A stretch of DNA of 23,665 nt from Nitrospira sp. (lineage in GTDB: Bacteria > Nitrospirota > Nitrospiria > Nitrospirales > Nitrospiraceae), in the NCBI GenBank assembly GCA_015904055.1, contig JABMDE010000081.1:6269-29933 (forward strand), given 5' to 3'. The stretch's first letter is position 1. Each line of letters starts with the position of its first letter. Shown here piece after piece: positions 1-23,665 of this stretch. Below the pieces are notes generated by a model. That model worked only from the letters and a program-made list of their open reading frames with translations, did not search any database and was not told where the DNA came from. A program made the translations under genes and the position numbers.

Positions 1-1322
1 GTGTTGTACTGCCAGTTGACTTTGAATACGGTGTCTTCGATCGGGCGAAAATTGAGGCCCACAGTCAGCCGGTCCAGTTCACGCCGATTCCCGGCGCTAA
101 GGGCCAGCGTGCGGTTATCCGTATCGGTGTCGACTTGCTCCCAACGTAGGGTAAACGTGAAGGTCGACGCTTCAGAGAAGTGGCTGGGGGCCAGTCTTCT
201 CAGTAGTTCCGGCATGAAGTGATAGTTGCCCTGAACATAGTACCCGAACATGCCGGCTGGACCAATGACTGGTGCGGCGGCGGATCGGTTGTTGCTGATT
301 CTTGACAGGGCTGCTTCCCCGATAAGTTCAAAGGGGCCACGCTGAAGAGTCCAGTCCAGTGCATAGATGCTGATCCATCCGGATCCTAATAGTCCTCCCG
401 CCGGTCTGTACTGTCCATGATAGGCGGATCCACCGACTTCAATGCCTAGCATGGGACTGATGGCTACTCGTCCAACGACTGCCTTATTGTCATCCCGGTC
501 TCTGGACACACTTCCACGGGCACCACGAACCCCCAAATCGGTAATAGTGCCGGCTGTCTGGGTCATGCCGTTGACGGCATAGACTTCATAGTCAATCTTT
601 GAAAGCGATGTCGGGTAGATCGTTCCGTAGATGCCGGCGCCGGCTTCGAACCAGGTGCTAGGGATGATAATTCTGGAGACCATCGGCCGATCGACCAGGT
701 CGTTCAAGGGTGAGTCGTGCAGCAAGTTGAACTTGCCGACCGGCATCAGCAAGATACCGCCACGGAGGTTGATGGTTTCATTGACGAGATAGTCCATTTG
801 GGCGAATTCAACCTGGATTGTGCCATCTCCGTGTGGAGAATTTGTCCCTCCGCGTTCAATCTCGATTTCGGTCGCGAATTTCACACGGTCAGTAATATCC
901 GCATAAAGGAACGGTACTAACCGTTGTTGCCCAAAGCTGTTGCGGCTCGGGTTGTCGAGATTCTGGCGGGAGAGGATGTTGTACATGACGTCGGCATAGC
1001 CTCCGACCGTCGCTTTAGGCATGCTGAGAAACGGTTTGGCATAGATCAGTTTGCCAGACCCAGTTGAGCCGAACCCGAGAGGAACCTTCTCTTCTCCCTT
1101 TCGCTCAACCTTGATGTCAGTCATCGGACCAGCCGGCATCGGATATTGGGGAGCCGGCGGCGATGATCGTTCCTGCTGAATTTCACGGGACTCGCGCTCC
1201 TGCGCTTTTCTCAACGCTTCCTCAAGTTTTTTGACTCGTTCCTCCAGGCTCTCCTCTGCGAAGACCGGTGTAACCGACAGCGCAATGATCGAAAGAGCCC
1301 CGAGGAGTAACCGCGTAATCAA
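1..1322 (-). CDS. Outer-membrane beta-barrel (porin-like) protein, copy A, partial at left edge
   Basis: The minus frame is open from a TTG at 1322 to the left edge, so only the last roughly 30 codons are missing by comparison with copy B at 19752-21226. It begins MITRLLLGALSIIALS and has a signal peptide ending near VFA/EE. A short charged coiled-coil follows (EERVKKLEEALRKAQERES), then a long region of alternating strands typical of porins. Conserved blocks shared with copy B include GSTGSGKLIYAKPF, LLHDSPLNDL, DRPMVSR and QGNYHFMP. TTG is chosen because the ATG at 1326 lies in another frame that stops after about 34 codons; GGAGGG precedes both. It lies downstream of a Com-like gene and a Fur-type promoter, so iron-regulated expression is likely. 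The substrate is unknown. No TonB-dependent receptor plug is visible, so a passive or specialised porin is favoured over a siderophore receptor. Confidence 0.75.
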   Translation of the reverse strand, partial: MITRLLLGALSIIALSVTPVFAEESLEERVKKLEEALRKAQERESREIQQERSSPPAPQYPMPAGPMTDIKVERKGEEKVPLGFGSTGSGKLIYAKPFLSMPKATVGGYADVMYNILSRQNLDNPSRNSFGQQRLVPFLYADITDRVKFATEIEIERGGTNSPHGDGTIQVEFAQMDYLVNETINLRGGILLMPVGKFNLLHDSPLNDLVDRPMVSRIIIPSTWFEAGAGIYGTIYPTSLSKIDYEVYAVNGMTQTAGTITDLGVRGARGSVSRDRDDNKAVVGRVAISPMLGIEVGGSAYHGQYRPAGGLLGSGWISIYALDWTLQRGPFELIGEAALSRISNNRSAAAPVIGPAGMFGYYVQGNYHFMPELLRRLAPSHFSEASTFTFTLRWEQVDTDTDNRTLALSAGNRRELDRLTVGLNFRPIEDTVFKVNWQYN

Positions 1323-1665: not shown

Positions 1666-1708
1666 TTGAGAACGATTATTAATATCTCATGAAATCATCC
1701 ATTGTCAA
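1666..1708 (-). promoter_or_regulatory. Fur-type box over a sigma70-like promoter, copy A
   Basis: Positions 1667-1689 form an imperfect AT-rich palindrome (TGAGA...TCTCA) matching 14 of 19 bases of the classical Fur consensus. On the minus strand a perfect TTGACA (1703-1708) stands 18 bp from TATTAA, which falls inside the palindrome. Bound repressor would cover the -10 of the com-barrel transcript. The 29 bp at 1661-1689 are identical at 21561-21589, with the same spacing to TTGACA, while neighbouring bases differ. Confidence 0.75.
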
Positions 1709-1756
1709 GTGCGTGGTCGCTGCTTGCTGATTGATGCAATCCTCCGTGCGGGGCTC

Positions 1757-1762
1757 TATAAT
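1757..1762 (+). promoter_or_regulatory. Probable -10 box of apbE, copy A
   Basis: A perfect TATAAT lies about 40 bp before the preferred apbE start, inside a conserved CTCTATAATTTCCTTC stretch also found before apbE copy B. No good -35 is visible at 17 bp. Transcription from here would begin after the longest possible apbE start codon at 1709, which argues for a later start. Confidence 0.5.
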
Positions 1763-1801
1763 TTCCTTCCATCGATGAGTGAATGGGGGCACCGTACAAG
1801 T

Positions 1802-2842
1802 ATGTGCAAGTTAGTCATCGTGGCAGGCAAGTTTTTTCATGCAGGTACACTTTTTCTTCTTCTTATTAGTGTGGTGATGACAGGCTGTGCCGGAGCAATG
1901 TCTCTTTCTCGCAATGCGGTGGTAAAGCGAGCCCAAGTGCAAATGGGGACGCTGGTGACGATTACAGCCGTGGCCCCTGATCTGGAAGCAGGACACAAGG
2001 CAATCCAGGCAGGGTTCAATGAGATCAAGAGGCTTGAACGATTATTGAGTACGTGGATTCCAGAGAGCGAGCTGTCGCAGGTGAATGCTGAAGCCGGTCG
2101 CCGGCCGGTGACCGTGAGCCGGGAGACCGTGGATCTGGTGGCTCGATCGATGGGGATGGCGAGACTGACGGAGGGAGGATTCAATATCGCAGTGGGGCCC
2201 GCGGTTGAAGCCTGGAGTGTAACTGAACGGCAACATATTCCTAGCGATGACGAGCTGCAACGGTTGAAAGTACTCGTTGATATGGACGCTATTCAGATCG
2301 ATATGGCACGACAGACTATTTCCCTTTTGCATAAGGGGATGAAGATCGATGTGGGCGGGATTGGAAAAGGGTACGCGGCGGATCGGGCTGTAGAGGAAAT
2401 GAAAAAGGCCGGTGCACAGGGAGGCGTTGTTGCGTTGTCGGGAGATATCAAAACCTTCGGGGTGTTTCCGGATGCTGCCGGTTTTCCTGTCGGGATCAAG
2501 CATCCACGGAAAGAAGGCGCGGTCATTGCCGTGATTGATTTGCAGGATGAAGCCATCTCAACGGCGGGGGATTATGAACGGTTTTTTGAACGAGATGGAG
2601 TCCGCTATCATCATATTCTTGACCCACAGACCTTACGGCCTGCGCGTGCGTGCCAGAGTGTGACGGTGATCGGAAGAGAGGGCGTGCTTGTGGATGGCCT
2701 TGATACCGGGATCTTCGTCTTAGGGCCTGAACGAGGGATGGCGCTGATCGAACGGCTTGCGGGGGTTGAAGCGATCATCATCGACAATCAGGGCACCATG
2801 ACCCTGTCGTCTGGGCTTCGGTCCAGACTGCGTGCGCCATGA
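1802..2842 (+). CDS. apbE: FAD:protein FMN transferase, ApbE family lipoprotein, copy A
   Basis: ApbE enzymes take FMN from FAD and attach it covalently to Ser/Thr in extracytoplasmic proteins such as NqrC, RnfG and FMN-binding-domain proteins. The protein has a lipoprotein signal ending LISVVMTGC. The family blocks are MGTLVTITAV, LLSTWIPESELSQVN, IDVGGIGKGYAADRA, VVALSGDIKTFG, HHILDPQTLRPA and the metal-site region VDGLDTGIFVLG. That last block reads DGLDTG where many family members have DALATA. At about 346 residues the length is normal. The start at 1802 (MCKLVIVAGK) is preferred because ATG is conserved there in copy B and it lies after the TATAAT; ATGs at 1709 and 1775 are possible. It is divergent from the com-barrel genes and convergent with tonB. 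A substrate candidate lies at 18555-19229. Confidence 0.93.
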   Translation: MCKLVIVAGKFFHAGTLFLLLISVVMTGCAGAMSLSRNAVVKRAQVQMGTLVTITAVAPDLEAGHKAIQAGFNEIKRLERLLSTWIPESELSQVNAEAGRRPVTVSRETVDLVARSMGMARLTEGGFNIAVGPAVEAWSVTERQHIPSDDELQRLKVLVDMDAIQIDMARQTISLLHKGMKIDVGGIGKGYAADRAVEEMKKAGAQGGVVALSGDIKTFGVFPDAAGFPVGIKHPRKEGAVIAVIDLQDEAISTAGDYERFFERDGVRYHHILDPQTLRPARACQSVTVIGREGVLVDGLDTGIFVLGPERGMALIERLAGVEAIIIDNQGTMTLSSGLRSRLRAP

Positions 2843-2863
2843 GCCGTCGCGCGACGACGGTGG

Positions 2864-3709
2864 CTACCGCGCTGTTTTAAGATCGTAGATGATTGAGAAC
2901 TTCACCGGCATGTGAGGCCGTTCCAGCGGGTGTGAGAGCATAATGGGCGGGCCTTTTCTGACGTCTTCCACAGCGACTTGATCGAGCATCGCGTTCCCGG
3001 AGCTCTTGGCGACACGCACGTCGCTCAAGACGCCATCCTCATGCAGCACTGCCGTTAACGTAACTTTCCCCTGAATCCCCTCGGTTCGCAACATGGCCGG
3101 ATAGCGTTTGTCGAGATCCTCGATCCATTTGGCCATAAGTTCCGAGAGCCATCCGTAATCGGGCTTGATGGGCTTGAACTGTTCGGCGTGAGAGTTGGTA
3201 GCGAGTTGTGGTCCGGGAGAGGGGTCCACTTGTTGATGTGTCGGTATGTCTGGAGTGATGGGTGGTGAATCAAGTTGAGTGGGAGATACCGGGTGAGTAG
3301 GTGCTGCAGCCGTGTGCTGAGTCGATGGGACGGTATACGATGATGCGGTGGACACAGGCGGTGGCGGTTCAATCGAAGGGGCGAGTGTCGTCGCGGTCTC
3401 TCCCGGCTCCGGCTTTGGTAGAGCCGGTTGTGCAGGAGGGAGGTCTGTCGCCGGGTGTGTGGGTGTCGGCGGTACGGAAGGTGACACCCGCCGTGCCATG
3501 GCTGTTTCATGCGGTGATGGAGTGGTCATCGGCGAGGAGGCGGTCATCGCCACATCCCATGTGAATGGTTCTGCCTGGGGTGCCAATCGCAAGCTCTGTA
3601 AGAAAAAGACGACGCCGATGGCCACACCGCCATGCAGCAGACAGGAAACAACCCAGCCTGTAGTTTCAGGGGTTGTTCGATCGATCGGATGCCGTCGAGT
3701 CGCGATCAT
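2864..3709 (-). CDS. tonB: TonB energy-transducing protein, copy A
   Basis: TonB spans the periplasm and passes proton-motive energy from ExbB/ExbD to outer-membrane transporters. This 281-residue protein has one N-terminal membrane segment (about residues 18-40) with the SxxxH motif (S22, H26). A long Pro/Thr-rich periplasmic spacer follows (about 55-170). The C-terminal TonB domain runs from about 190 to 281, with ELMAKWIEDLDKRYP, GKVTLTAVLHEDG and SSGNAMLDQVAVEDVRK. The start ATG overlaps the exbD stop as ATGA, so the order is exbB-exbD-tonB with coupled translation. Its stop lies 21 bp from the convergent apbE stop. The C-terminal third is almost identical to copy B, while the spacer and membrane segment differ more. 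Confidence 0.92.
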   Translation of the reverse strand: MIATRRHPIDRTTPETTGWVVSCLLHGGVAIGVVFFLQSLRLAPQAEPFTWDVAMTASSPMTTPSPHETAMARRVSPSVPPTPTHPATDLPPAQPALPKPEPGETATTLAPSIEPPPPVSTASSYTVPSTQHTAAAPTHPVSPTQLDSPPITPDIPTHQQVDPSPGPQLATNSHAEQFKPIKPDYGWLSELMAKWIEDLDKRYPAMLRTEGIQGKVTLTAVLHEDGVLSDVRVAKSSGNAMLDQVAVEDVRKGPPIMLSHPLERPHMPVKFSIIYDLKTAR

Positions 3710-4083
3710 GGCAGACGGATTACCTCAAGACTGACTTGCTGAAACCCAAGGCCGCGGATGTCATCGACCAGGGCGACGAACTTTTCCAGCAATGTGACTT
3801 TGTCCGCACGGACGACCACGGCGGACTCACGAGATTCAGCCATCAGTGTAGAGGGGAGCCCTCCGTCGGGGATGGGTTTGTCGTTGACGAACAGGTTGCC
3901 CTCCGATGTGAGCGTAATGATGATGGGAACGTCCTTCCGGTCGCTGACGGTTTTGGCCTTCGCCAAATTCACGGGAATCTGCCCCGTACTGATGAATGTG
4001 GCCGTCGTCAGGACGATGACCAGCAAGACGAGCATCACATCCACGAGCGGAATGACATTGATCTGATCAATGTCCTGTTTCAT
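3706..4083 (-). CDS. exbD: Biopolymer transport protein ExbD, copy A
   Basis: A 125-residue inner-membrane protein of the TonB energising complex. A single membrane segment (about residues 9-30, INVIPLVDVMLVLLVIVLT) carries the essential proton-path Asp at D15. The periplasmic domain follows, with IPVNLAKAK, DVPIIITLTSEGNLFVNDKP and VVVRADK typical of ExbD. It overlaps the exbB 3' end by 17 bp and tonB by 4 bp, showing a tightly coupled operon. The C-terminal residues match the copy cut off at the right edge. Confidence 0.93.
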   Translation of the reverse strand: MKQDIDQINVIPLVDVMLVLLVIVLTTATFISTGQIPVNLAKAKTVSDRKDVPIIITLTSEGNLFVNDKPIPDGGLPSTLMAESRESAVVVRADKVTLLEKFVALVDDIRGLGFQQVSLEVIRLP

Positions 4084-4498
4084 GTTGTGCCTTGTATTGG
4101 GTCAAAAGTTCAGCAACACGACGCCGAAGCACATTGTTCATGACGACGCAGGGAATGGCGACCATCAAGCCAACGGCTGTGGCTTTCAATGCCAGGCTCA
4201 AGCCGATCATAATGGTATTGACGGCCATCGTACCGGACGTCCCCATCGTGTGAAAGGTTAACATGATACCAAGGACAGTGCCGAGGAGGCCAATGTAGGG
4301 CGCATTGGCGGCGACGGTCCCAATGATCACAAGACGTCTAGTGAGCGTGATCTCCAGCAGTTGCGCGTTGGGGTACTGGCTCAGGTCCACCCGTCGATAG
4401 AAAAGCCAGCGTTCCACGGCGACCGCGACCGACCAGAGGCTCAGAACCAGGAGGAGGCCAATCACCCCGTAATCAACCGCGTGTTTCAGCGCGTCCAT
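4067..4498 (-). CDS. exbB: Biopolymer transport protein ExbB/TolQ-like
   Basis: A 143-residue MotA/TolQ/ExbB proton-channel protein. It has an N-terminal membrane segment (GVIGLLLVLSLWSVAVAVE) and two more in the conserved core: ANAPYIGLLGTVLGIMLTFH and LSLALKATAVGLMVAIPCVVMNN. It is short compared with E. coli ExbB but normal for compact forms. The start has an AAGGAG ribosome site five bases upstream. It opens the exbB-exbD-tonB operon; the 117 bp upstream before the ABC ATPase stop show no clear promoter or Fur box. Confidence 0.9.
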   Translation of the reverse strand: MDALKHAVDYGVIGLLLVLSLWSVAVAVERWLFYRRVDLSQYPNAQLLEITLTRRLVIIGTVAANAPYIGLLGTVLGIMLTFHTMGTSGTMAVNTIMIGLSLALKATAVGLMVAIPCVVMNNVLRRRVAELLTQYKAQHETGH

Positions 4499-4615: not shown

Positions 4616-5746
4616 TTATGCTCGATCAGGGAATTGGCCGGCTCGAAACAATACGGTATGTGTCGCGGATACACGAAGCTCAACGGCCGTTCCTTCCTGA
4701 TAAACACTGGTTGAGCTTTCGCTGCTGTGGACGATTTGGCCGGAGCTCAGCCGGACCGTATACAGATTTTCTGAGCCTCGAAACTGCCGGGCGACGATAC
4801 GGGGCCCAGCCGAGTTGTTCGGGAGAAGGTGAATATCGTCGGGACGAATCATCACGACCACGGGGGTGTTGTCTTCTGCAGCCAGTGTGTTGGGAAAAGT
4901 TCCCAATTCGGTATGGACCATGCCTTGTTGGACATGTCCAGTGATAAAGTCGGCCTGCCCGACGAAGTCGGCGACGAACGGCGTCGAAGGGAGGTGGTAG
5001 ATGATTTCCGGCGAATCCATCTGTTCAAGCACACCATGGTTTAGCACGGCAATCCGGTCGGCCATGGCAAAGGCCTCGTCATGGTCGTGGGTGACCAAGA
5101 TGGTCGTCGTTTTCATCCGGCGCAACAGCGTATGGAGTTCTTGGCGCATGCGGCCGGCCATATCGGGGTCGAGGTTACTGAACGGTTCATCCAGCAACAG
5201 CACGACCGGATTTTGTGCCAACGCCCGAGCCAACGCTACGCGCTGCTGCTGCCCGCCTGATAGCTCGTGCGGATAGCGCCGCTCGAATCCCTCCAAGCCA
5301 GTCAGCCGCAACATCTCGTGAACCCGGTTGTCCCGATCCGATCGGGACAGGTGGCTAAGTCCGAAGGCGATGTTGCCGACGACGCGGAGGTGGGGGAACA
5401 GGGCATATTCCTGGAAGACCATGCCGACATGCCGATCTTCAGTAGGGACCGTGTCTGAGGGAGTAGAGACTTGCCGGCCTGACAGGAAGATTTCTCCGGA
5501 CCTCACCGGCTCAAAGCCCGCGATGGCCCGTAGCACGGTGGTTTTGCCGCAGCCCGATGGCCCGAGCAGGCAGAGGATTTCCCCTTCCTGCGCGGAAAAT
5601 GAAATATCGCGAATAGCCGGGCGGTGCGGATCGTAGGCACAGGACACCGAGCGCAGTTCTAAAATAGGAGTTGCCGGTGCGCACAGATCGACTTGACGGT
5701 CGAGCCGGTTGGTTTCTGCAGGGGGCAGATGTGATTCAGTCGTCAT
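4616..5746 (-). CDS. fbpC: Ferric iron ABC transporter ATP-binding protein (FbpC-like)
   Basis: The cytoplasmic ATPase of the importer encoded with the next two genes. It has Walker A GPSGCGKT (about 62-69), a Q-loop in VFQEYALFP, signature LSGGQQQR (about 162-169), Walker B LLLDEPFSNLDP (about 183-194), the H-loop His in VTHDHDEA (H220), and a C-terminal TOBE-like regulatory domain to residue 376. The 25-30 residue N-terminal extension before the ATPase fold is unusual. The gene follows the permease by 8 bp and is the last gene of the operon. FbpC, AfuC, PotA and CysA ATPases are similar; ferric iron is preferred because of the partner binding protein and the Fur box. Confidence 0.88.
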   Translation of the reverse strand: MTTESHLPPAETNRLDRQVDLCAPATPILELRSVSCAYDPHRPAIRDISFSAQEGEILCLLGPSGCGKTTVLRAIAGFEPVRSGEIFLSGRQVSTPSDTVPTEDRHVGMVFQEYALFPHLRVVGNIAFGLSHLSRSDRDNRVHEMLRLTGLEGFERRYPHELSGGQQQRVALARALAQNPVVLLLDEPFSNLDPDMAGRMRQELHTLLRRMKTTTILVTHDHDEAFAMADRIAVLNHGVLEQMDSPEIIYHLPSTPFVADFVGQADFITGHVQQGMVHTELGTFPNTLAAEDNTPVVVMIRPDDIHLLPNNSAGPRIVARQFRGSENLYTVRLSSGQIVHSSESSTSVYQEGTAVELRVSATHTVLFRAGQFPDRA

Positions 5747-5754: not shown

Positions 5755-7338
5755 CTAGGCCGCCCGCCAATCTCGCGACAACAAGAGTGCTAATGCAGGT
5801 AAACCCACCAACACGATCAGCAGTGCGGAGGGAGCCGCCAGTTGATAGTATTCTTCGCTCGCTTCCAGCCACACACGGATTGCCAGTGTGTCAAAACCTA
5901 CGGGACGCAGGAGCAGTGTAGCTGGCAACTCCTTCATCGTTTGCAGAAACATCAGGACCCAGGCGGCAATAAAGCCATTGCGGATGAGCGGAAGCGTCAC
6001 ACGGCGCCAGGTTGTCTGAACACCGAGCCCCAATGTGCGGGCCGCCTCTTCAAGATTGGGCGTAATCTGCTGGAGTGCTGGTTCGAGCGATTGAAGCCCG
6101 GCAGGGAGAAAATGCAGTACATAGGCGACGATCAAGACGACCGCCGTACCATAAACGAACGGCATCAGTTTGAGGCACAGCACTAAGACGGCCAGGGCTG
6201 CAACTGGTCCGGGGAGTACATATCCGGCGTACGCCGCCTGCAGGCAGCCCAGATTGAGCCAGGTCGGCTTCCGGCTCGCGAGATAGGCCAGCGGAAGGCC
6301 GATCAGGACGCCTGCCGTAGCGGCAAGGGCTGAAAGGAATGCGCTATTCCAGACAAAGCCGACGAAGCGGGCATCCAAAATTGCCAGCGCTTCCGGAGAC
6401 AGGCTCCATTGCACGAGCAAGTAGAAAGGAACACCGAAGGCTGCACCGAGGATGGCGGAAAGATATGCGGTAAAGGCCGCAGTCTTGAGCCAGTCGCACT
6501 CGATACGCAGTGGTGCGCGGTAGCGGCCCGTGGTTTGGTGGAATCGGCTCTTATGGCGAAACCAACGCTCGGTTAGCAAGAAGACCAGGGCGAGTATCAC
6601 CAGCAGGATACTCAGAATGCTGGCGGCGGTGTTGTCGGATCGTCCGGTCATTTGCTGGAAGACGGCATAGGTCAGCGTTTGGTAGCGTAAGAGAGAGACG
6701 GCGCCGAAATCAGAAACTACGTAGAGAATCACTAACGCCGTTCCCGCTACGATTGAAGGGCGAAGCAGCGGCAGGGTGACACGGAGCATTGTGCGCACGC
6801 GGGAAGCGCCGCATGTACGGGCCACTTCTTCGAACGACACGTTTAAACTCAAGAGCGCGCTGCGGGTCAGGAGATAGACGAACGGGAAGGTATCAAGTGC
6901 CATCACCAGCGTGGCGCCCCAGAAACTCTGTGGCGAGAAGATTCTGGACTGAGGTCCGGCTAAGACTTGCCAGAGGTGTTCCACCGGCCCGCCAAATCCC
7001 AACAGATAGTTGTACACGTAGGCCAACACATAGGTCGGCATCGCCAGCGGCAGCACGAGGGCGATTTCCCAAAGCCGGCGCCCATGAAAATCGAATCGTG
7101 TGACGATCCAGGCAGTCGAGACTCCTAACAGGAGGGTTAGAACGGCTACGGTTCCAGCCAGGGCTACGGTGTTGGTCAATAGCTCCGGGATGCGCGTGGT
7201 CCACAGGCGTTGCCACACCGCGAGGTCGGCCGATATGGCCAGCCCAGTGACATAGCCCAGCGGCAGAAGAATAAGTATCGCACTGCCCAGCACGGCCAAC
7301 TGGAGAGGGACTGTCGCATGGAGCCGTAGATTGGTCAC
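5755..7338 (-). CDS. fbpB: Ferric iron ABC transporter permease (FbpB-like, fused two-domain)
   Basis: A 527-residue inner-membrane permease made of two tandem binding-protein-dependent transport domains, as in FbpB/SfuB. Each half has about six membrane helices and an EAA-type loop that contacts the ATPase. The loops are EEVARTCGASRVRTMLRVTLP in the first half and EEAARTLGLGVQTTWRRVTLP in the second, near the C-terminus. The start is GTG at 7338 (MTNLRLHATVP), 15 bp after the binding-protein stop. Spacing on both sides fits a single transcript: binding protein, permease, ATPase. Confidence 0.9.
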   Translation of the reverse strand: MTNLRLHATVPLQLAVLGSAILILLPLGYVTGLAISADLAVWQRLWTTRIPELLTNTVALAGTVAVLTLLLGVSTAWIVTRFDFHGRRLWEIALVLPLAMPTYVLAYVYNYLLGFGGPVEHLWQVLAGPQSRIFSPQSFWGATLVMALDTFPFVYLLTRSALLSLNVSFEEVARTCGASRVRTMLRVTLPLLRPSIVAGTALVILYVVSDFGAVSLLRYQTLTYAVFQQMTGRSDNTAASILSILLVILALVFLLTERWFRHKSRFHQTTGRYRAPLRIECDWLKTAAFTAYLSAILGAAFGVPFYLLVQWSLSPEALAILDARFVGFVWNSAFLSALAATAGVLIGLPLAYLASRKPTWLNLGCLQAAYAGYVLPGPVAALAVLVLCLKLMPFVYGTAVVLIVAYVLHFLPAGLQSLEPALQQITPNLEEAARTLGLGVQTTWRRVTLPLIRNGFIAAWVLMFLQTMKELPATLLLRPVGFDTLAIRVWLEASEEYYQLAAPSALLIVLVGLPALALLLSRDWRAA

Positions 7339-7353: not shown

Positions 7354-8424
7354 TTACCGGAGGCCTACTTGTTCGATGAGCAATTGCGTCGGCTCGCGCA
7401 ACTCGGCCAGCTTGGTGAGTGGCACCAGGGCTGCGCGAAAGCTCTTGCGCTCGACAAGGGCAGGATCGGCCTTGACCTCCGGATGAAGCGGATACTCCTT
7501 GTCGAGATCGGCAAACATCTTCTGGCCTGCCTGTGCGACCAGGAATTCGACGAGCAGTTTGGCGCTGTCGAGCCGCGGGGTATGTTTGAGGATTCCGACG
7601 CCCGCCACATTCATGATTGCGCCCATGCCGCCCTCATGTTGGTCCGGCATCAAGACGGCGAGCGGTGCAGTCGGTTGCGCAGCAAGATGTCGATACACGT
7701 AATAATGATTCACAATGCCGATGGCGACCTGGCCTTTGGCCACGGCCTCCACGATTTGAGAGCTTTTCTGATAGACCTGGCTTCCGGCATTATCTCGCAG
7801 TCCCTGGAGAAAGCTCTTTGTCCGTTCGTCTCCCACACTCGCGCGAATGACGGAGACCCCCGCCTGTAAGTATTCACTGCCGGAATTTGGAATCGCGATT
7901 TTGTCTTTCCATTCGGTATTGGCCAGATCGAGCAACGATTTGACCTGATCGGGTTTCACCAGGGTTGTGTTGTAGACGATGATCCAGAAGCGTCCGGACA
8001 AACCGATCCAGCTATTGTCCGAGGCGCGGAATTGCGAAGGGATTGCGCGGTCGATTTCCCGCATATTCAGCGGGCGAAGAAGTCCCGCAGTTCGGGCTAG
8101 CTCCAGGCTGCCGGCGTCATTGGTAATGAACAGATCCGCCGGGCTGCGGTCTCCCTCTATCTTCAACCGGTTGACCAGTTCGGTGGTGCCGGAGGAGAGC
8201 AGGTCGATTTGAATGCCGGTCTTCGCGGTGAAGGAATCCAGCACCGGCTTGATCAGCCGTTCAGCGCGCCCTGAATAGACGGTCAACTTCTCCTCGGCCC
8301 AGACTGGTGTTGCGGCATTCGGCCATGCGGAGAGGAACAAGCTGAAGAACACCAGGGTGATCGAAGCGAATCGGAGCCGGAAAGAACAAGCAGAAGAGTG
8401 CCGATGCTGTAGGATGTTCCACAC
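7354..8424 (-). CDS. fbpA: Periplasmic Fe(III)-binding protein of ABC transporter (FbpA/FutA-like)
   Basis: The substrate-binding protein that captures ferric iron in the periplasm. A secretion signal ends near PVWA/EE, followed by the mature start EEKLTVYSGRAERL, the usual opening of this family. The adjacent tyrosines in NHYYVYRH match the YY pair that binds iron in FbpA/FutA, and VYSGR supplies another possible Tyr ligand. GTG at 8424 is chosen because AAAGG lies eight bases upstream; an in-frame GTG at 8433 is an alternative. A Fur-type box lies 20 bp upstream, so iron repression is likely. It opens the fbpA-fbpB-fbpC operon. Confidence 0.9.
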   Translation of the reverse strand: MWNILQHRHSSACSFRLRFASITLVFFSLFLSAWPNAATPVWAEEKLTVYSGRAERLIKPVLDSFTAKTGIQIDLLSSGTTELVNRLKIEGDRSPADLFITNDAGSLELARTAGLLRPLNMREIDRAIPSQFRASDNSWIGLSGRFWIIVYNTTLVKPDQVKSLLDLANTEWKDKIAIPNSGSEYLQAGVSVIRASVGDERTKSFLQGLRDNAGSQVYQKSSQIVEAVAKGQVAIGIVNHYYVYRHLAAQPTAPLAVLMPDQHEGGMGAIMNVAGVGILKHTPRLDSAKLLVEFLVAQAGQKMFADLDKEYPLHPEVKADPALVERKSFRAALVPLTKLAELREPTQLLIEQVGLR

Positions 8425-8444
8425 AGGCCACACCTTTCATTGAA

Positions 8445-8494: not shown

Positions 8495-8926
8495 TCAATG
8501 ACGACAGCGAGAACAGAGGCCGTAGAGTTCCAGGCGGTGGGTTTTGATGGTGAAGCCGTTGCGAGCGGCGACCTCTTCCTGAAGACGTTCAATATCGCAG
8601 TTTTCAAACTCCACGATCTTTCCGCAGTCTGTGCAGATGAGATGGTCGTGATGGCCTTTATGGGAGACGTTGTCGTATTGGGTCTGCGTGCCAAAGTGCC
8701 GGGCCTGTGCCAGGCCGGCTTCGCAAAAGAGATTGAGCGTGCGATAGATCGTGGCCAGCCCCAAATGAGGATCTTTCTTCGCCAGCTGGTGATACATCGC
8801 CTCCGCAGTGATGTGCTCTTGCTTGAGAAAGGCATCAAGAATTAGCTCGCGTTGGCGGGTGCATTTCAGCTGATGCTTCCCGAGATGCTCTTTCAGCGCC
8901 GTAATTTCTTTTTGATGCTTCGACAT
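8495..8926 (-). CDS. fur: Ferric uptake regulator family protein (Fur)
   Basis: A 143-residue metal-sensing repressor. The N-terminal winged helix carries CTRQRELILDAFL and the recognition segment GLATIYRTLNLFCEAGL. The C-terminal dimerisation and metal domain has the hallmark GHHDHLICTDCGKIVEFEN. Structural zinc cysteine pairs are at about C98/C101 (CTDC) and C138/C141 (CSRC). The gene lies immediately upstream of the ferric importer and shares its direction. Candidate target sites occur at 1666, 8445 and 21566. Fur proper is favoured over Zur or PerR because of its iron-gene neighbours; sequence alone cannot settle the metal. Confidence 0.92.
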   Translation of the reverse strand: MSKHQKEITALKEHLGKHQLKCTRQRELILDAFLKQEHITAEAMYHQLAKKDPHLGLATIYRTLNLFCEAGLAQARHFGTQTQYDNVSHKGHHDHLICTDCGKIVEFENCDIERLQEEVAARNGFTIKTHRLELYGLCSRCRH

Positions 8927-10359: not shown

Positions 10360-10513
10360 TGGCCACGACCTCGGGATCCGGCGGGATGATTTCGGCGGGT
10401 TGCAGTGAAGCGGCATCGACCGGGGACTCGTCCCTGGGCCTCGCCGTTGTCCGGCGAGCGCCGGCAACGCCTCGATTCTCGCGCTTCTTCTCAGCATGCA
10501 TGATGGGGTGCAT
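10360..10513 (-). pseudogene. N-terminal remnant resembling an IS3-type transposase OrfA
   Basis: The frame starting at 10513 encodes MHAEKKRENRG, a Pro/Ala-rich stretch, then IPPDPEVVAS. The PDPEVV segment typically precedes the RRRFTAEYKLRIL helix of one group of IS3-family OrfA proteins. Here the frame is cut immediately after it by the IS-end sequence. The identification rests on a short motif. Confidence 0.35.
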
Positions 10514-18019: not shown

Positions 18020-18529
18020 TTACGAATTCGACGGCTGTTTCCCCCCCATCAGCGGTTGTCCTAATACCCACATTTCATAAAGTGGCACAGTCATCATGAC
18101 GAGAAAGCTGACCGTCATGAGTGTGTCCCCGGTCAGCATGGTGACCACAAAAATCGGCGAGACGTAGCTGATGAGCCACGGCGAGAGGAGGTCAAGGATG
18201 ACCCCGCCTAAGCCTCCCCATGTGACGGCGGCTTTGAGGCCATGACTTGCGCTCGTCAGGTACATAACATGGATCAAAATCATAAAGACGACCGGCATAG
18301 TGAATAGGTGAAAATGTGTGATTTCGGCCAGTTCTCGAAACGACATTGGCTCGCCGTCGGACCCTCGGTAGTGATCGGCAATGCCCTGCGGAGATAAGCT
18401 GGTCATGCTGTGAGCCCAAAAAAACGAGAATACAAATCCTGCCAACATCAAGAGAAGAAACAACGTATAGAGCAACCGAATGTGGCGATCCGAATCTCGC
18501 AGTTTGAATTTTTGATTGAAGTTTCGCAT
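18020..18529 (-). CDS. Four-helix integral membrane protein, possible electron-transfer partner
   Basis: A 169-residue protein with about four membrane helices: LLYTLFLLLMLAGFVFSFFW, FTMPVVFMILIHVMYL, WGGLGGVILDLLSPWLI and a final one near LMTVSFLVMMTV. Several histidines lie in or near the second helix (ITHFHLF...LIHVM), which could hold b-type haem, but no family is recognised with certainty. It is encoded 25 bp after the FMN-binding protein gene, and a terminator follows. Membrane proteins beside ApbE substrates often pass electrons to the flavin; that is inference here. Confidence 0.65.
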   Translation of the reverse strand: MRNFNQKFKLRDSDRHIRLLYTLFLLLMLAGFVFSFFWAHSMTSLSPQGIADHYRGSDGEPMSFRELAEITHFHLFTMPVVFMILIHVMYLTSASHGLKAAVTWGGLGGVILDLLSPWLISYVSPIFVVTMLTGDTLMTVSFLVMMTVPLYEMWVLGQPLMGGKQPSNS

Positions 18530-18554
18530 GTCGGGGACGCTCGGTCCGCTTCGA

Positions 18555-19229
18555 TTAGTTCCCTAGAAATGTGCCGAACAATCCTTTGTCCGACTTGCGC
18601 ACGGCGACGGTGTCGCTTCCGATTCCGGCCGGCTTCAAATAAAATTCATCGACCAGCACCAATACGCGCTTGATTCCGGCGCTCATGGAACGGACCGACA
18701 TGGTCGCTCCGCTGATATTGATGATATCTTTGTTGATGCGCACGGGATCCAGCACCGTTTTCCCTTCATATTGGGCGTTGAATCGCTTTTGGCGGATTTC
18801 GCTGCCGCGCGATTCACGGAAGATCAACAGCTCAATGTCTGACACGTGGCCTTTGCTATCGACGCCGACCATGTAGGTCATCGGCTTGTGCTTGCCGATC
18901 GTATTCTGGACCAACGCATAGCCATCGACCTCTGTGCCCGTTTCACCGATATAGACCTCGAAGGATTGTTCCGGAAATTTCCAGCCGATGCGCTCCTCGA
19001 TTTGAGCCTTCTTTTCCGGGCTGAGCTTGATCACATCCTTGCGGATACGCTCGGATTTTGGGAGCATGATCTTGACCCCTTCTTCCTCGCTCATGAAGGC
19101 TTCGGCGATGGCCAGTTCCTGATCCGTCAGAAAACGCTTGAGGTCGTTATCCCAAATGCGTTCGGCCCTGGCAGGGATGGATGATGCGATGAGCAGGACG
19201 ACTGAAAAAAAGAACAAACGCATTGTCAT
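18555..19229 (-). CDS. Exported FMN-binding-domain protein (ApbE substrate)
   Basis: A 224-residue secreted protein with a signal peptide to about residue 22 (SSIPARA/ER). The C-terminal part is an FMN-binding domain like those of NqrC and RnfG, with VDGYALVQNTIGKHKPMTYMVGVD and the flavinylation motif SGATMS at 173-178, where T176 would carry FMN. The first half (about 25-90) is helical and unassigned. It overlaps the lipoprotein gene by 4 bp (ATGA) and precedes a membrane protein, forming a small redox operon. Two apbE genes in the window provide the modifying enzyme. It probably shuttles electrons across the envelope. Confidence 0.87.
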   Translation of the reverse strand: MTMRLFFFSVVLLIASSIPARAERIWDNDLKRFLTDQELAIAEAFMSEEEGVKIMLPKSERIRKDVIKLSPEKKAQIEERIGWKFPEQSFEVYIGETGTEVDGYALVQNTIGKHKPMTYMVGVDSKGHVSDIELLIFRESRGSEIRQKRFNAQYEGKTVLDPVRINKDIINISGATMSVRSMSAGIKRVLVLVDEFYLKPAGIGSDTVAVRKSDKGLFGTFLGN

Positions 19230-19711
19230 GGCGCAGGCTGACAGCCTTTTTCTTTGAGCCGGCCATTGAGCGTCCCTGTCACTTCGTTCATTGCCTCTTC
19301 GGAAGGCTCAATGGGCCACCATCTGGTCGCTCGCGAGGTCGCGCCTCCTCGGGCGTGCCATCGTTCGCGAATCTCCAGCACGCTGAAGCCAGTGCCGCCG
19401 TCGATTTTCTTGACGGATATCGACATGCGAGCACGCTCGCGGTTGCCGAAGCCTTCTCGAGCAAAAATTCCATAGGTGCGTGTCTTGCCCTCCATCTCAA
19501 GCCATGCGGTTTCGATTGACCCGCTGCTCTTATCTTGTGAGGTAATGGAGTAACCGTTCATCGTCTCCATGGCAGCGTCCCACACCGTGTCGTACGAGCA
19601 CGCGAAGGTGGTATCTCGGCTGCCACTGAGCGAGGCACAAGCCGTCAGTGTGATAAGCGGAAGGATCAAGACGAGATGCTGTAATTGTTTCCTATGTTTC
19701 ATCGATGTCAT
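19226..19711 (-). CDS. Hypothetical lipoprotein in the flavin operon
   Basis: About 160 residues with a lipoprotein signal ending LPLITLTAC. The mature part begins with SLSGSRDTTFACSYDTVWDAAMETM and contains SITSQDKSSGSIETAW, a pattern seen in small outer-membrane lipoproteins of the BamC/NlpB-like or DUF799-like type. No family is certain. The start is uncertain: ATGs at 19711 and 19702 both give a good signal, and neither has a clear ribosome site. A hairpin lies directly upstream. Its stop overlaps the FMN-binding gene start as ATGA, so translation is coupled. Confidence 0.7.
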   Translation of the reverse strand: MTSMKHRKQLQHLVLILPLITLTACASLSGSRDTTFACSYDTVWDAAMETMNGYSITSQDKSSGSIETAWLEMEGKTRTYGIFAREGFGNRERARMSISVKKIDGGTGFSVLEIRERWHARGGATSRATRWWPIEPSEEAMNEVTGTLNGRLKEKGCQPAP

Positions 19712-19717
19712 CAGCGC

Positions 19718-19742
19718 GGGGACTTCCCTATGGGAAGCCCCC
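19718..19742 (-). other. Intercistronic hairpin between barrel gene copy B and lipoprotein gene
   Basis: An 11-bp stem with one non-Watson-Crick pair and a 3-nt loop (19718-19728 with 19732-19742). No T-run follows, so it looks more like an mRNA stability or translation-control element than a terminator. It occupies the expected ribosome-site area of the lipoprotein gene. Confidence 0.5.
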
Positions 19743-19751
19743 GCACACCTC

Positions 19752-19910
19752 CTAGAAATAGGTTGCCACTGACATAACAAAGGCACTGTCGTGAATTCGT
19801 TGTCCAGAAACAGGGTTAAATGCCTTGGGCAAATATTGATAACTCATCTTGATGACCGCATCTTCAATCGGGCGATAATTCAAGCCTCCCATTCGCCCGC
19901 GTTTTCCCCC
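19752..19910 (-). pseudogene. Out-of-frame C-terminal part of barrel gene copy B
   Basis: In the frame next to the main reading frame, the minus strand encodes GLNYRPIEDAVIKMSYQYL and then ends DSAFVMSVATYF with TAG at 19752. This aligns with GLNFRPIEDTVFKVNWQYN of copy A and supplies the C-terminal Phe expected of an outer-membrane barrel. The frames meet at a C5/T4 run on the plus strand (19902-19910); one extra base there would join them. Confidence 0.85.
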
Positions 19911-21226
19911 TTATTGTCCATATTCAAATTAACCCGATCGTATCGAAACACTGCTGTAAACGTTGATCCCTCGCCGAAGCGTTTGGGAGCGAGCTTCGTT
20001 AAGAAGGACGGCATGAAGTGATAGTTGCCTTGAACGTAGAACCCCCAGAGCCGTTGAGGGGGGCCAGACAATGGGTTGAGTGTGTTCATGCCGGAAAGTA
20101 TGGAGCCAGGGGTAAATCCGGTGATCGAGCTGCCAGGAATCGCCCGAGAGTTGCCTCTCGCATAGGCCCAGGCTGCTTCGCCGATGATTTCAAACGGCCC
20201 CTTTTGAAGGGTCCAGTCTATTGCATAGATGCTGAGGGGATTGTAGCTGGTCGCTGATTGATTGCCGAAGTAGCCGGATCCGGCAACTTCCACTCCCAGC
20301 AAGGGGCTATAGGCCAGACGTCCGGACACGGCTTTCCCGTTGTTGATGTCAAGTCCATCATCTGAAGAGCATTTTCGCTGGCGTGAACTTCTCGTGCCAT
20401 TTTCCTCTGAGACCCGCGGCCTACCATTAGTCGTATAACCGCAGGGGCCGGTCGTATAATACACTTCGTAATCGACCTTCCCGGTTCGTCCCGGATAAAA
20501 AGTGCCGTAAAGGCCTGCGCCCGTTTCTGACATTGTTGAGGGAATGACCAATCGGCTGACCATTGGTCGATCGGTCAAATCGTTCAATGGCGAGTCATGC
20601 AGCAAATTGAATTTGCCGAGCGGGATGAGCACGATGCCGGCTCGAACATTCAGGAGCTCATGAACAAGATAATCGACGTGGGCGAATTCGAGACTAATTT
20701 CATTTTGACCGGCATTTCCTCTGATCCCATGTTCGATTTCAATTTCTGAGGCGAACTTCAGATGCTCGGTGATATCCGCGTAGATGAAGGGGACAAACCG
20801 CTGCTGATCATAGCCATTGGTCGTCCCCCCGCTGCCGTAACCACCGGTTTCAAGCACCGCGTTACGGTGGGTGCGGTATTGGAGGTCCATATATCCGCCG
20901 ACGATCGCCTTGGGAAACGCCACAAACGGCTTGGCGTAGACCAAGCGGCCGGAACCGCTCGATCCGAATGACAGGGGCGCCTGCTTATCCGCTCGGCGCT
21001 CTTTCCCAACTTCCGGCAGGGCGCCGATTCCTGGCTGGGCTGCTTCTTCCGCCTGACCTTCCTTCGGTTCACGAGCGCCCTCTCGACGCTCATGCTCTTG
21101 CAGGCGTTTCTCCACTGCTTCATCAACTAACTTCTTGATTTCCTCTGGGGTTATGTCTGCGGCCATGACCGGCATGACCGGCAAACTGGCGATAACAAGA
21201 GCCCCGAGGAGTGACCGCATAATCAT
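19880..21226 (-). CDS. Outer-membrane beta-barrel (porin-like) protein, copy B, frameshifted near C-terminus
   Basis: A 448-residue reading frame starting MIMRSLLGALVIASLPV with a signal peptide. A coiled-coil-like acidic/basic segment (EEIKKLVDEAVEKRLQEHERREG) is followed by a porin-like barrel homologous to copy A (GSSGSGRLVYAKPF, LLHDSPLNDLTDRPMVSRLV, QGNYHFMPSFL). GGAGGA lies five bases before the ATG. The frame ends with EWEA at 19880. That is premature, because the homologous last 40-odd residues and the terminal Phe lie in the next frame (see 19752-19910). Whether this is a real mutation, slippage or a sequence error is open. It opens the operon for the lipoprotein, FMN-binding protein and membrane protein. 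Confidence 0.8.
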   Translation of the reverse strand: MIMRSLLGALVIASLPVMPVMAADITPEEIKKLVDEAVEKRLQEHERREGAREPKEGQAEEAAQPGIGALPEVGKERRADKQAPLSFGSSGSGRLVYAKPFVAFPKAIVGGYMDLQYRTHRNAVLETGGYGSGGTTNGYDQQRFVPFIYADITEHLKFASEIEIEHGIRGNAGQNEISLEFAHVDYLVHELLNVRAGIVLIPLGKFNLLHDSPLNDLTDRPMVSRLVIPSTMSETGAGLYGTFYPGRTGKVDYEVYYTTGPCGYTTNGRPRVSEENGTRSSRQRKCSSDDGLDINNGKAVSGRLAYSPLLGVEVAGSGYFGNQSATSYNPLSIYAIDWTLQKGPFEIIGEAAWAYARGNSRAIPGSSITGFTPGSILSGMNTLNPLSGPPQRLWGFYVQGNYHFMPSFLTKLAPKRFGEGSTFTAVFRYDRVNLNMDNKGENAGEWEA

Positions 21227-21247
21227 CGGTATCCTCCCTGGTAAGTA

Positions 21248-21283
21248 AGATGGTGGTCTGACTCGGGACTCGACGGTCTCTGG
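21248..21283 (-). promoter_or_regulatory. Conserved leader element, copy B
   Basis: Matches 1349-1384 at 34 of 36 positions and lies at the same distance from the barrel start, with the repeated GAGTC and AGACC units retained. Confidence 0.45.
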
Positions 21284-21359
21284 TCTGGGGTTTGTAGACG
21301 AATAGACGGAATGAACGAATGGTGGATGATCTGTGACAAACCTCCTTTCATGGGGCGAT

Positions 21360-21539
21360 TCATGATGTGAACGTGTTCCATCCCTGAATCGAGGAAAAGG
21401 GGATCATGACGATCCGCTTGCAGCGCTTGCATTTGAGTTCCAGCCCTTCCTCGGACACTTTGGCGATCAATTGGCCGCATTCGCAGCGGGTTTCGCCATT
21501 CTGGCAGCGATCCGAGTCAGAAGCCTTTGTGATGACCAT
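21360..21539 (-). CDS. Com-like zinc-ribbon protein, copy B
   Basis: A 59-residue protein starting at ATG 21539 and ending at TGA 21360. Its core is RCECGQLIAKVSEEGLELK followed by CKRCKRIVMIPFSSIQGW, nearly the same as copy A at 1448-1639. The ends differ: the N-terminus is VITKASDSDR and the C-terminus is NTFTS. Conservation of the core with divergent ends shows selection on the zinc-ribbon. GAGGAAGAG lies about nine bases before the start. The gene is first after the Fur-box promoter and precedes the barrel gene by about 130 bp. Confidence 0.7.
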   Translation of the reverse strand: MVITKASDSDRCQNGETRCECGQLIAKVSEEGLELKCKRCKRIVMIPFSSIQGWNTFTS

Positions 21540-21565
21540 AAGTGCGATCTCTTCCTCAACTGAAA

Positions 21566-21608
21566 TTGAGAACGATTATTAATATCTCACAAACTCGTCT
21601 CTTGTCAA
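21566..21608 (-). promoter_or_regulatory. Fur-type box over a sigma70-like promoter, copy B
   Basis: The Fur-like palindrome is identical to that at 1667-1689. The minus-strand TTGACA (21603-21608) stands at the same spacing, with the -10 inside the palindrome. The 14 intervening bases differ from copy A, so the box and -35 have been selectively kept. Confidence 0.75.
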
Positions 21609-21677
21609 GAGCGTCATGGCCGTTAAAATCAGGCGCGGTTTTCGCTTGCCATAGATGCAATCCTCTTCGCCGGTCTC

Positions 21678-21683
21678 TATAAT
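21678..21683 (+). promoter_or_regulatory. Probable -10 box of apbE, copy B
   Basis: TATAAT within CTCTATAATTTCCTTC, in the same position relative to apbE as in copy A. Confidence 0.5.
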
Positions 21684-21722
21684 TTCCTTCTATCTATGGG
21701 TGAACGGAGTTGCCGTACAGGT

Positions 21723-22760
21723 ATGTGCGAATCAGTCATCATGGCAGGCAAGATTCTCTATGCCGGCACACTCTTCCTCTTTCTTAGCATCGTGATGACA
21801 GGCTGTGGGGGAATGACGCCTCATTCTCGCGATGTGGTGGTGAAGCGAGCCCAAATGCACATGGGGACGCTGGTGACGATTACAGCTGTGGCGGCTGATC
21901 TGGAAGCAGGGCACAAGGCAATCCAGGCAGGGTTCAATGAGATCAAACGACTTGAACGATTATTGAGTACCTGGATTCCAGAGAGTGAGCTGTCGCAGGT
22001 AAATTCAGAAGCCGGTCGCCAGCCGGTGACCGTGAGTCGGGAGACCTTGGATCTGGTGGCCCGATCGATGGAGATAGCGAGACTGACGGGGGGAGGATTC
22101 AATATCGCGGTGGGTCCTGCGATTGACGCATGGAGTGTAACTGAACGGCAACATATTCCTAGCGATGAAGAGCTGCAACGGTTGAAAGTACTCGTTGATG
22201 TGGCCGCTATTCAGATCGATATGACACGACAGACCATTTTTCTTCCGCATAAGGGGATGAAGATCGATGTGGGTGGGATCGGAAAAGGGTATGCGGCGGA
22301 TCGGGCTGCAGAGGAAATGAAAAAGGCCGGTGCACAGGGAGGGGTTGTTGCGTTGTCGGGAGATATCAAAACATTCGGGGCGCTTCCCGATGCTGCCGGT
22401 TTTCCCGTCGGCATCAAGCATCCACGGAAAGAAGGCGCTGTCATTGCCGTCATTGATTTACAGGATGAAGCCATCTCAACGGCGGGGGATTATGAACGGT
22501 TTTTTGAACGGGATGGAGTCCGCTACCATCATATTCTTGACCCGCAGACCTTGCAGCCTGCGCGTTCTTGCCAGAGCGTGACTGTGGTCGGAAAAGAAGG
22601 AGTGCTTGTGGATGGCCTCGACACTGGGATCTTTGTCTTGGGGCCTGAGCGAGGAATGGCACTGATCGAACGGCTTGCAGGGGTTGAAGCGGTCATCATC
22701 GACGATCAGGGCACAATGATCCTGTCGTCGGGGCTTCGGTCCCGATTGCGCGCTCCATGA
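21723..22760 (+). CDS. apbE: FAD:protein FMN transferase, ApbE family lipoprotein, copy B
   Basis: A 345-residue paralogue of the gene at 1802-2842, with over 90 percent identical residues in the catalytic part by eye. It has the lipoprotein signal LFLSIVMTGC and blocks MGTLVTITAV, DVGGIGKGYAADRA, ALSGDIKTFG, HHILDPQTLQPA and VDGLDTGIFVLG, all as in copy A. Differences concentrate in the signal peptide and first mature residues. The start at 21723 (MCESVIMAGK) is preferred; the ATGs at 21696 and 21741 are alternatives. It is divergent from com copy B across the Fur box. It probably flavinylates the SGATMS protein of the neighbouring operon. Confidence 0.93.
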   Translation: MCESVIMAGKILYAGTLFLFLSIVMTGCGGMTPHSRDVVVKRAQMHMGTLVTITAVAADLEAGHKAIQAGFNEIKRLERLLSTWIPESELSQVNSEAGRQPVTVSRETLDLVARSMEIARLTGGGFNIAVGPAIDAWSVTERQHIPSDEELQRLKVLVDVAAIQIDMTRQTIFLPHKGMKIDVGGIGKGYAADRAAEEMKKAGAQGGVVALSGDIKTFGALPDAAGFPVGIKHPRKEGAVIAVIDLQDEAISTAGDYERFFERDGVRYHHILDPQTLQPARSCQSVTVVGKEGVLVDGLDTGIFVLGPERGMALIERLAGVEAVIIDDQGTMILSSGLRSRLRAP

Positions 22761-22783
22761 GCCGTCGTGAGTACTTATGGTGG

Positions 22784-23629
22784 CTACCGAGCTGTTTTCA
22801 GGTCGTAGATGATCGAGAACTTTACCGGCATGTGAGGCCGCTCCAGCGGGTGTGATAGCGTGATGGGCGGGCCTTTCCTGACGTCTTCCACAGCGACTTG
22901 ATCGAGCATCGCGTTACCGGAACTCTTGGCTACACGCACATCGCTCAAGACTCCATCTTCATGCAGCACTGCCGTCAACGTAACTTTCCCCTGAATTCCC
23001 TCAGTTCGCAACATCACCGGATAACGTTTGTCCAGATCCTCGATCCATTTGGCCATGAGCTCCGAGAGCCATCCGTAATCGGGCTTGATGGGCTTGAATT
23101 GTTCAGCGTGAGAGTTGGTAGCGATTTGTGGTCCAGGAGAGGGGTCCATCTGTTGATGTGTCGACAATTCTGGAGTGCTGGGTGGTGAATCAAGCTGAGT
23201 GGGAGATACTGGGTGAGTGGGTGCTGCAGTCGTGTGCTGCGGCGATGGGGCGGCATACGATGATGCGGTGGATGCAGGCAGTGGCGGTTCAATCAAAGGA
23301 GACAGTGTTGTAGCCGCCTCGCCCGGGTCCGGCTTTGGCAGAGCCGGTTGCGCAGGAGCAAGGTTTGCTGTTGATCGCATGGGTGTCGGCGGTGTAGGAG
23401 GCGACACCCGCCGTGCCATGGCTGGTTCATGTGGTGATGGCGTGGTCCTCAGTGAGGAGGCGGTCATAGCCACATCCCAAGTGAATGGTTCAGCCTGGGG
23501 TGCCAATCGTAAGTTCTGTAAGAAAAAGGCGGCGCCGATGGCCAACCCGCCATGCAACAGGCAGGATACAATCCAGCCCGCGGTTTCAGGGTGTGTTCGA
23601 TCGATCGGATGCCGTTGAGTATCGATCAT
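22784..23629 (-). CDS. tonB: TonB energy-transducing protein, copy B
   Basis: A 281-residue TonB with the same plan as copy A: a membrane segment with SCLLH near residue 22, a Pro-rich spacer and a C-terminal TonB domain. The last 95 or so residues differ from copy A at only about two positions. The spacer and N-terminus carry dozens of changes but the length is identical. It overlaps the exbD stop by ATGA. A separate TonB may serve a different outer-membrane partner, or the pair may simply be redundant. Confidence 0.92.
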   Translation of the reverse strand: MIDTQRHPIDRTHPETAGWIVSCLLHGGLAIGAAFFLQNLRLAPQAEPFTWDVAMTASSLRTTPSPHEPAMARRVSPPTPPTPMRSTANLAPAQPALPKPDPGEAATTLSPLIEPPLPASTASSYAAPSPQHTTAAPTHPVSPTQLDSPPSTPELSTHQQMDPSPGPQIATNSHAEQFKPIKPDYGWLSELMAKWIEDLDKRYPVMLRTEGIQGKVTLTAVLHEDGVLSDVRVAKSSGNAMLDQVAVEDVRKGPPITLSHPLERPHMPVKFSIIYDLKTAR

Positions 23630-23665
23630 GGCAGACGGATCACCTCAAGACTGACTTGCTGAAAT
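23626..23665 (-). CDS. exbD: ExbD, copy B, C-terminal end only
   Basis: The last 12 codons (FQQVSLEVIRLP and stop) are identical in protein to the exbD copy at 3706. The rest lies beyond the right edge. Confidence 0.8.
   Translation of the reverse strand, partial: FQQVSLEVIRLP

Follow-up and report, generated by a model that had tools for sequence, protein, structure and literature searches.

Clusters that link flavinylation to iron, Fur-repressed ones among them, have already been published: in Meheust et al. (2021, PMC8238504), some PepSY-like and DUF2271 clusters are repressed by Fur and linked to iron reduction. The present work concerns a 23,665-nucleotide stretch of Nitrospira sp. DNA (GenBank assembly GCA_015904055.1, contig JABMDE010000081.1, positions 6,269 to 29,933 of the forward strand; hereafter "the window"), and in it an operon that encodes a barrel, a lipoprotein, an exported flavin mononucleotide (FMN)-binding protein, and a four-helix membrane protein (Mem), with an apbE gene in divergent orientation. 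Members of Nitrospira are major nitrite oxidisers, and comammox members oxidise ammonia. Judged from its sequences and their conservation, the cluster very probably constitutes an electron-transfer module; that ferric reduction for uptake is the job of this module is an even bet. To the full reading, namely that the cluster is a Fur-controlled, assimilatory periplasmic ferric reductase that is fed by a porin and feeds FbpABC, we assign a rough probability of 0.5.

The flavin operon and its conservation

The genes of the operon, the divergent apbE, and the intervening regulatory element are as follows.

mem, 18020..18529, minus strand: four-helix membrane protein of 169 aa, with H72, H74 and H87 invariant (alignment A2)
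fmn, 18555..19229, minus strand: FMN_bind protein, RnfG-like and exported; signal of Sec type, judged by eye; SGATMS motif with T176
lip, 19226..19786, minus strand: lipoprotein with LTAC lipobox, its start likely to be at 19711 or 19702
bar2, 19880..21226, minus strand: outer-membrane porin-type barrel with a helix at its N-terminus; by comparison with related barrels, frameshifted at the 3' end
Fur-like box GAGAACGATTATTAATATC, 21568..21586, strand unassigned: between bar2 and apbE2
apbE2, 21696..22760, plus strand: FAD:protein FMN transferase; hydrophobic N-terminus ending in MTGC

An initial annotation of this DNA had placed all five genes at these positions and on these strands, as we found them. 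Two of its gene bounds probably need correction: for the lipoprotein, a start at 19711 or 19702 is more probable than one at 19786, and the bar2 frame (448 aa, vs. 472–507 aa in 71 complete barrels of more than 400 aa from related loci) appears to be frameshifted, or its record in error, because sequence resembling the last strand of related barrels follows in another frame.

One scan of a species-level genome collection returned 93 relatives, and the analysis went on with the 80 best loci. Their titles read Nitrospira, Nitrospiraceae, Nitrospirae or Nitrospirota, apart from two (L015 and L069) that are labelled uncultured Nitrosospira. With loci having enough upstream sequence as the denominator for each neighbour, fmn adjoins mem in 80/80, lip is present in 71/76, a barrel lies upstream in 69/70, and apbE is divergent in 54/55. 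TonB, ExbD and ExbB are each encoded in 51/53, FbpC in 50/53 and FbpB in 47/53. Most of the other loci form a single run, fur-fbpABC-exbBD-tonB / apbE / barrel-lip-fmn-mem, with fur itself in view in few. Among relatives of approximately 30–40% identity, the order ApbE, FMN, Mem is found on one strand at 16 of 17 loci (L121–L136, L138); L131 displays only FMN and Mem, and its contig ends shortly 5' of the FMN frame. The initial annotation had staked its proposal on a gene order shared beyond this strain. Indeed, the order recurs in 80 loci of the Nitrospira group, and its ApbE-FMN-Mem core in the distant loci. A Mem profile matches 203 of 269 genomes of the class, whose completeness is unstated; this number includes some c-haem relatives, because three of 28 rechecked genomes (G021, G253, G254) carry only such a relative.

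The Fur-like box

The box at 21568–21586 agrees with the Fur consensus used for the scoring of 19-mers at 15 of 19 positions, a score equalled in none of 300 single-base shuffles. The same 19-mer occurs once more in the window, at 1668–1686; at three or fewer mismatches, it was matched in none of 100 shuffles of the window. From the 80 loci, 61 apbE-barrel gaps could be excised: 58 hold a box of at least 14/19, and 52 hold the identical 19 bases. Fur-like boxes of 14–17 of 19 are also found at 14 of 20 distant loci (L143–L162), some 5' of the barrel or of fbpA and others within called frames; the chance rate for such boxes, 0.2 per 23.7 kb, derives from the shuffled window rather than from these loci themselves. 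A box in the promoter region is what a predicted member of the Fur regulon would have, and the conservation of this box supports the iron control that had been suggested for the operon.

Fur-like control would suit an iron-sparing carrier as well. In this alternative, the flavin protein would replace an iron-rich periplasmic cytochrome and would itself convey electrons from Mem to another periplasmic enzyme, with no direct part in reducing ferric iron. A relative of Mem has a c-type haem motif, a protein with two CxxCH motifs is encoded two genes downstream of the operon, and Meheust et al. (PMC8238504) suggest that flavin systems may suit iron-poor settings. We nevertheless consider this alternative unlikely: the conserved neighbours are iron-uptake genes, and a haem-binding Mem would itself consume iron.

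The FMN protein, ApbE, and their fusion

The fmn product matches FMN_bind (PF04205) at residues 112–190 (E = 8e-8; 33.2 bits vs. a cut-off of 22), and the solved structure closest to it is RnfG. The SGATMS attachment motif that had been pointed out in it was found at residues 173–178, which makes T176 the candidate acceptor; the general form of the motif, S/T-GA-T-x-S, is present in the window protein and in 79 of the 80 loci. The apbE2 product matches ApbE (PF02424; E = 4e-82). Its hydrophobic N-terminus ends in MTGC and orthologues have a cysteine at the equivalent place; a strict lipobox pattern does not match in apbE2.

At 15 of the 17 distant Nitrospiria loci, ApbE and the FMN domain form a single open frame just 5' of mem; at L127, the ApbE part is divided over two frames. 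ApbE is thus either encoded with its presumed substrate or fused to it. The fusion in relatives ties ApbE to this FMN protein and lends support to the earlier supposition that the one acts on the other. In the L143 fusion, hmmscan places ApbE at residues 12–285 and FMN_bind at 416–494, with a match to a model of the twin-arginine translocation (Tat) signal at 314–344 (20 bits vs. a cut-off of 16.7; this was the sole fusion run on that model). A database search limited to the second half of the fusion yielded 93 proteins, 92 of them with both Pfam domains; proteins from Ca. Manganitrophus noduliformans and SA1 are included. For a tally of Tat-like motifs, we used the 74 proteins of at least 460 aa that have the flavinylation motif (P0320, which has no motif, was left out). 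Sixty-seven of them have RRx plus a hydrophobic residue 120–190 residues ahead of the flavinylation motif, and 66 of these lack a hydrophobic N-terminus at the threshold used (P0264 is just above it). The other seven (P0319, P0321–P0326) look like fusions in the reverse order, because their motif is early (147–196) and their N-terminus hydrophobic. One of these, P0324, is named as planctomycete. ApbE matches also occur within open frames of 612–699 aa in genomes G275, G284 and G292, possibly further ApbE fusions.

In Nitrospira proper, ApbE is lipoprotein-like and the FMN protein has its Sec-type signal, vs. the internal Tat-like motif of the fusions. From these signals, the pair seems to act extracytoplasmically in Nitrospira and, in the fusion branch, inside the cell before Tat export. 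The ApbE-Tat-FMN fusions would then mean that flavin is attached before export, contrary to the usual picture of an extracytoplasmic ApbE. Internal translation starts or cleavage of the fusion are possible. In proteins that use Sec plus Tat, the Tat signals sit inside the chain. Proteins that require both pathways together do exist (PMC5449189).

The membrane protein Mem

The four helices ascribed to the 18020–18529 product were borne out by a structural model, which has long helices at residues 15–43, 64–89, 96–123 and 125–154 (mean predicted local distance difference test score, pLDDT, 88.8). In the 62-sequence alignment A2, which reaches down to about 27% identity, F4, Y21, Y54, G56, E69, H72, F73, H74 and H87 are invariant. 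The invariant histidines all fall on helix 2, with H72 15 and H74 13 residues before H87. The closest outside protein, 99% identical, is named Nitrospira sp.; the window Mem is without three residues found in the other 21 rows of alignment A1.

The charges (six K+R vs. two D+E in residues 1–18; two K+R vs. five D+E in residues 44–72) favour an N-terminus on the inside. A second protein family aligns with Mem residues 62–161 (probability 98.8%, E = 4e-17), and its four aligned members carry CxxCH ahead of the HxH helix and lack a histidine where Mem has H87. This arrangement suggests that the first loop of Mem is outside and that H72 and H74 are nearer to that side than is H87. FezC has been modelled with haem sites formed by homodimerisation (PMC11334425); by analogy, bis-histidine haem sites in a homodimer would be the obvious model for Mem. 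At one locus (L167, 8199–12152), a CxxCH relative of Mem has as neighbours a decahaem cytochrome of the DmsE family and an MtrB/PioB barrel; neither was matched at the other six of the seven c-haem Mem loci examined.

Relatives of Mem carry the precomputed label PF27139, a match that our local Pfam copy does not give. For the window Mem, nothing exceeded a Pfam cut-off; its sole match, BrkB, was far below. When the 62 members of A2 were scanned at E ≤ 0.5, 16 families were matched, none of them PepSY-like, MsrQ-like, NapH-like, DsbD, NQR/RNF-like or DUF4405. By Pfam sequence models, Mem was consequently not placed in any of these partner classes.

The barrel and the direction of electron flow

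The N. defluvii orthologue of the barrel is modelled with 16 strands in an OprO/OprP-like porin fold, and bar2 is thereby a predicted porin of that type. The window bar2 has no Pfam match; bar1, a second barrel described below, matches Porin_O_P. For lip, the match to DUF3576 is weak and below its cut-off. A TonB-dependent receptor was rejected as the identity of the barrel: neither window barrel matched Plug at E ≤ 1, and the orthologue has the porin fold. We also rejected a porin-cytochrome conduit of the MtrAB type, as neither window barrel matched MtrB_PioB and no multihaem cytochrome is encoded by the four genes of the operon.

Two functions had been offered for this gene set initially, ferric reduction and outward electron flow. 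The former fits the sequences better. Outward transfer, by which Mem and the FMN protein would carry electrons to the cell surface for mineral reduction or electron disposal, fits poorly because the orthologous barrel has an ordinary porin fold and the four-gene operon is without a multihaem cytochrome. The two-CxxCH protein (15471–17264) encoded two genes downstream tempers the latter argument, and the L167 neighbourhood would be in keeping with such a role; that neighbourhood was seen at only one of seven c-haem loci, and the genes in question are linked to fur and fbpABC. We regard outward flow as improbable.

Iron-uptake genes and the second copy

The remaining annotated features of the window are these.

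tonB2, 22784..23629, minus strand: TonB C-terminal protein
bar1, 3..1322, minus strand: second barrel, which runs off the window; match to Porin_O_P at E = 1.6e-5
second Fur-like box, identical 19 bases, 1668..1686, strand unassigned: between bar1 and apbE1
apbE1, 1709..2842, plus strand: 86% identical to apbE2
tonB1, 2864..3709, minus strand: 86% identical to tonB2
exbD, 3706..4083, minus strand: TIGR02804, below cut-off
exbB, 4067..4498, minus strand: TIGR02805, above cut-off
fbpC, 4616..5746, minus strand: ABC transporter ATPase
fbpB, 5755..7338, minus strand: ABC permease
fbpA, 7354..8433, minus strand: ferric-binding protein with an HYY stretch that lines up with the YY of solved proteins of this kind
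fur family regulator, 8495..8926, minus strand: exceeds the cut-off of Pfam FUR and reaches that of no NCBIfam subtype

FbpA matches 7li0 and 2pt1 best, with the tyrosine pair aligned, as befits a substrate-binding protein of the FbpABC/FutABC type. Among the 15 longer distant loci (L143–L157), fur is found at 12, fbpB or fbpC at nine, and a related barrel at 11; no frame in these loci is labelled TonB, ExbB or ExbD. Across 21 genomes, Nramp was matched in three and FeoB in none, by a FeoB_C model that matches seven of 14 controls.

Proteins of the FbpA type bind Fe(III). This family trait, together with the FeoB result, would accord with electron flow in the ferroxidase direction, with ferrous iron entering through the porin and being oxidised for FbpA while quinone receives the electrons by way of FMN and Mem. 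Low potentials are usual among covalent FMN domains and would suit these badly to the oxidation of Fe(II), and we hold this direction to be improbable also.

In the window, bar1-apbE1-tonB1, at 1–3.7 kb, is a second copy, followed by exbD, exbB, fbpC, fbpB, fbpA and fur. The two copies of barrel, Fur box, apbE and tonB (window 1–4500 and 19880–23665) flank approximately 15 kb, such that fbpABC and fur lie some 9–13 kb from the flavin operon, beside the second copy; in most other loci they adjoin the operon. The apbE-tonB stretches are 86% identical across 2,482 aligned bases. At the protein level, ApbE and TonB are each 86% identical between the copies and the barrels 46%, so that bar1 and bar2 look like two paralogous types; both types are also present in L004, L028, L031 and L033. 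The doubling represents either a duplication or an assembly effect.

On the same strand as mem and 3' of it are genes for an HD-domain protein (17207–17914) and for the long two-CxxCH protein. Relatives of one or both come after mem in many of the 80 loci, and the two genes may be co-transcribed with mem. A match to M32 carboxypeptidase at 9656–10513 is limited to the C-terminal part (profile 296–489 of 489), and this is probably a gene fragment.

Proposed mechanism

Under iron shortage, Fur would release both barrel-lip-fmn-mem and the divergent apbE. ApbE, likely a lipoprotein outside the inner membrane, would load FMN onto T176 of the FMN protein once Sec has exported it, and the 16-strand porin would admit small, probably anionic ferric chelates to the periplasm. 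Mem would take electrons, most likely from quinol, and pass them to the FMN protein via a haem or other centre, for which H72, H74 and H87 would be the ligands; it may do so as a homodimer. The flavin would reduce and thereby free the chelated iron, which FbpA would bind and FbpBC import. TonB-ExbBD, co-encoded in Nitrospira, would power TonB-dependent receptors encoded elsewhere.

Several observations weigh against this mechanism. Because FbpABC imports Fe(III), a reductase ahead of it seems redundant unless it serves to strip iron from chelates. No ferrous importer is present among the identified cluster genes, and FeoB was matched in none of the 21 genomes. In the cyanobacterial model, as outlined in PMC7676907, the iron, once reduced, passes to FeoB or undergoes re-oxidation, which makes that parallel partial. 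Mem is also not the sole candidate reductase, because PepSY_TM, linked to iron reduction in the literature, is found in 16 of the 21 genomes (15 above the cut-off). Finally, the window Mem and the 62 members of A2 match no known cytochrome family in Pfam scans, the sequence matches of Mem in the PDB are weak (E = 0.001–0.002; a photosynthetic NDH subunit and a cytochrome c555 construct), and a fold search returned uninformative helical-bundle matches at the noise level. These noise-level matches would also suit a reading in which no electrons cross the membrane here: Mem would serve to assemble or anchor the FMN protein, which would get its electrons elsewhere. The invariance of E69 and of three histidines on one helix, and the haem c motif in a relative, make such a role a poor prospect.

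A more ambitious form of the ferric-reductase reading can be put forward tentatively. Mem would be a transmembrane electron carrier of a new class, probably acting as a homodimer with two haems between the H74/H87 helices. Together with the FMN protein, it would give Nitrospiria their common system for the reductive uptake of ferric iron, one that is independent of Feo. The FMN protein of the Manganitrophus type would be a self-flavinylating fusion, whose cytoplasmic ApbE domain loads FMN on the folded domain before export by its own internal Tat signal.

Comparison with known systems

A word search of main texts in the literature consulted found neither the Mem family as a flavinylation partner, nor this gene order, nor the ApbE-Tat-FMN fusion. 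If the ferric-reductase reading is true, it names a conserved iron-reduction step for nitrite- and ammonia-oxidising Nitrospira, and Mem is an added membrane partner for the known flavinylation classes, open to a clean biochemical test.

As described in PMC8238504, the PepSY-like and DUF2271 clusters resemble the present one in uniting ApbE with a flavinylated protein of small size and a membrane protein of the haem type. In Nitrospira, by contrast, the substrate is FMN_bind, Mem has no PepSY_TM match, and PepSY_TM is encoded separately in 16/21 genomes. The cytochromes DUF4405 and FezC (Huang et al. 2024; PMC10979944 and PMC11334425) are likewise membrane proteins with conserved histidines that were found by linkage to apbE or iron, but Mem has no Pfam match to DUF4405, has four helices vs. 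the six of DUF4405, and is linked to fur and fbpABC. RnfG and NqrC share the FMN_bind domain with its flavinylated threonine motif; the fmn product scores far below the rnfG cut-offs, however, and no other Rnf or Nqr gene was found among the window proteins scanned. The P19-associated FMN_bind clusters (Meheust et al. 2021, PMC8238504) also tie such a protein to iron uptake, but they carry P19 and FTR1, neither of which was matched among those window proteins. The trypanosomatid fumarate reductase (PMC12052999) has an N-terminal ApbE fused ahead of the domain that is flavinylated, as do the fusions reported here; unlike that eukaryotic enzyme, the Nitrospiria fusions have their two domains separated by a stretch with a Tat-like motif. 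Also comparable is reductive iron uptake in cyanobacteria, for which PMC7676907 depicts porin entry, ExbBD-TonB, periplasmic ferric reduction, and import by FutA/FbpA. There, the reductive component is ARTO, an oxidase, whereas in Nitrospira reduction would fall to a flavin protein and Mem, encoded with the transporter.

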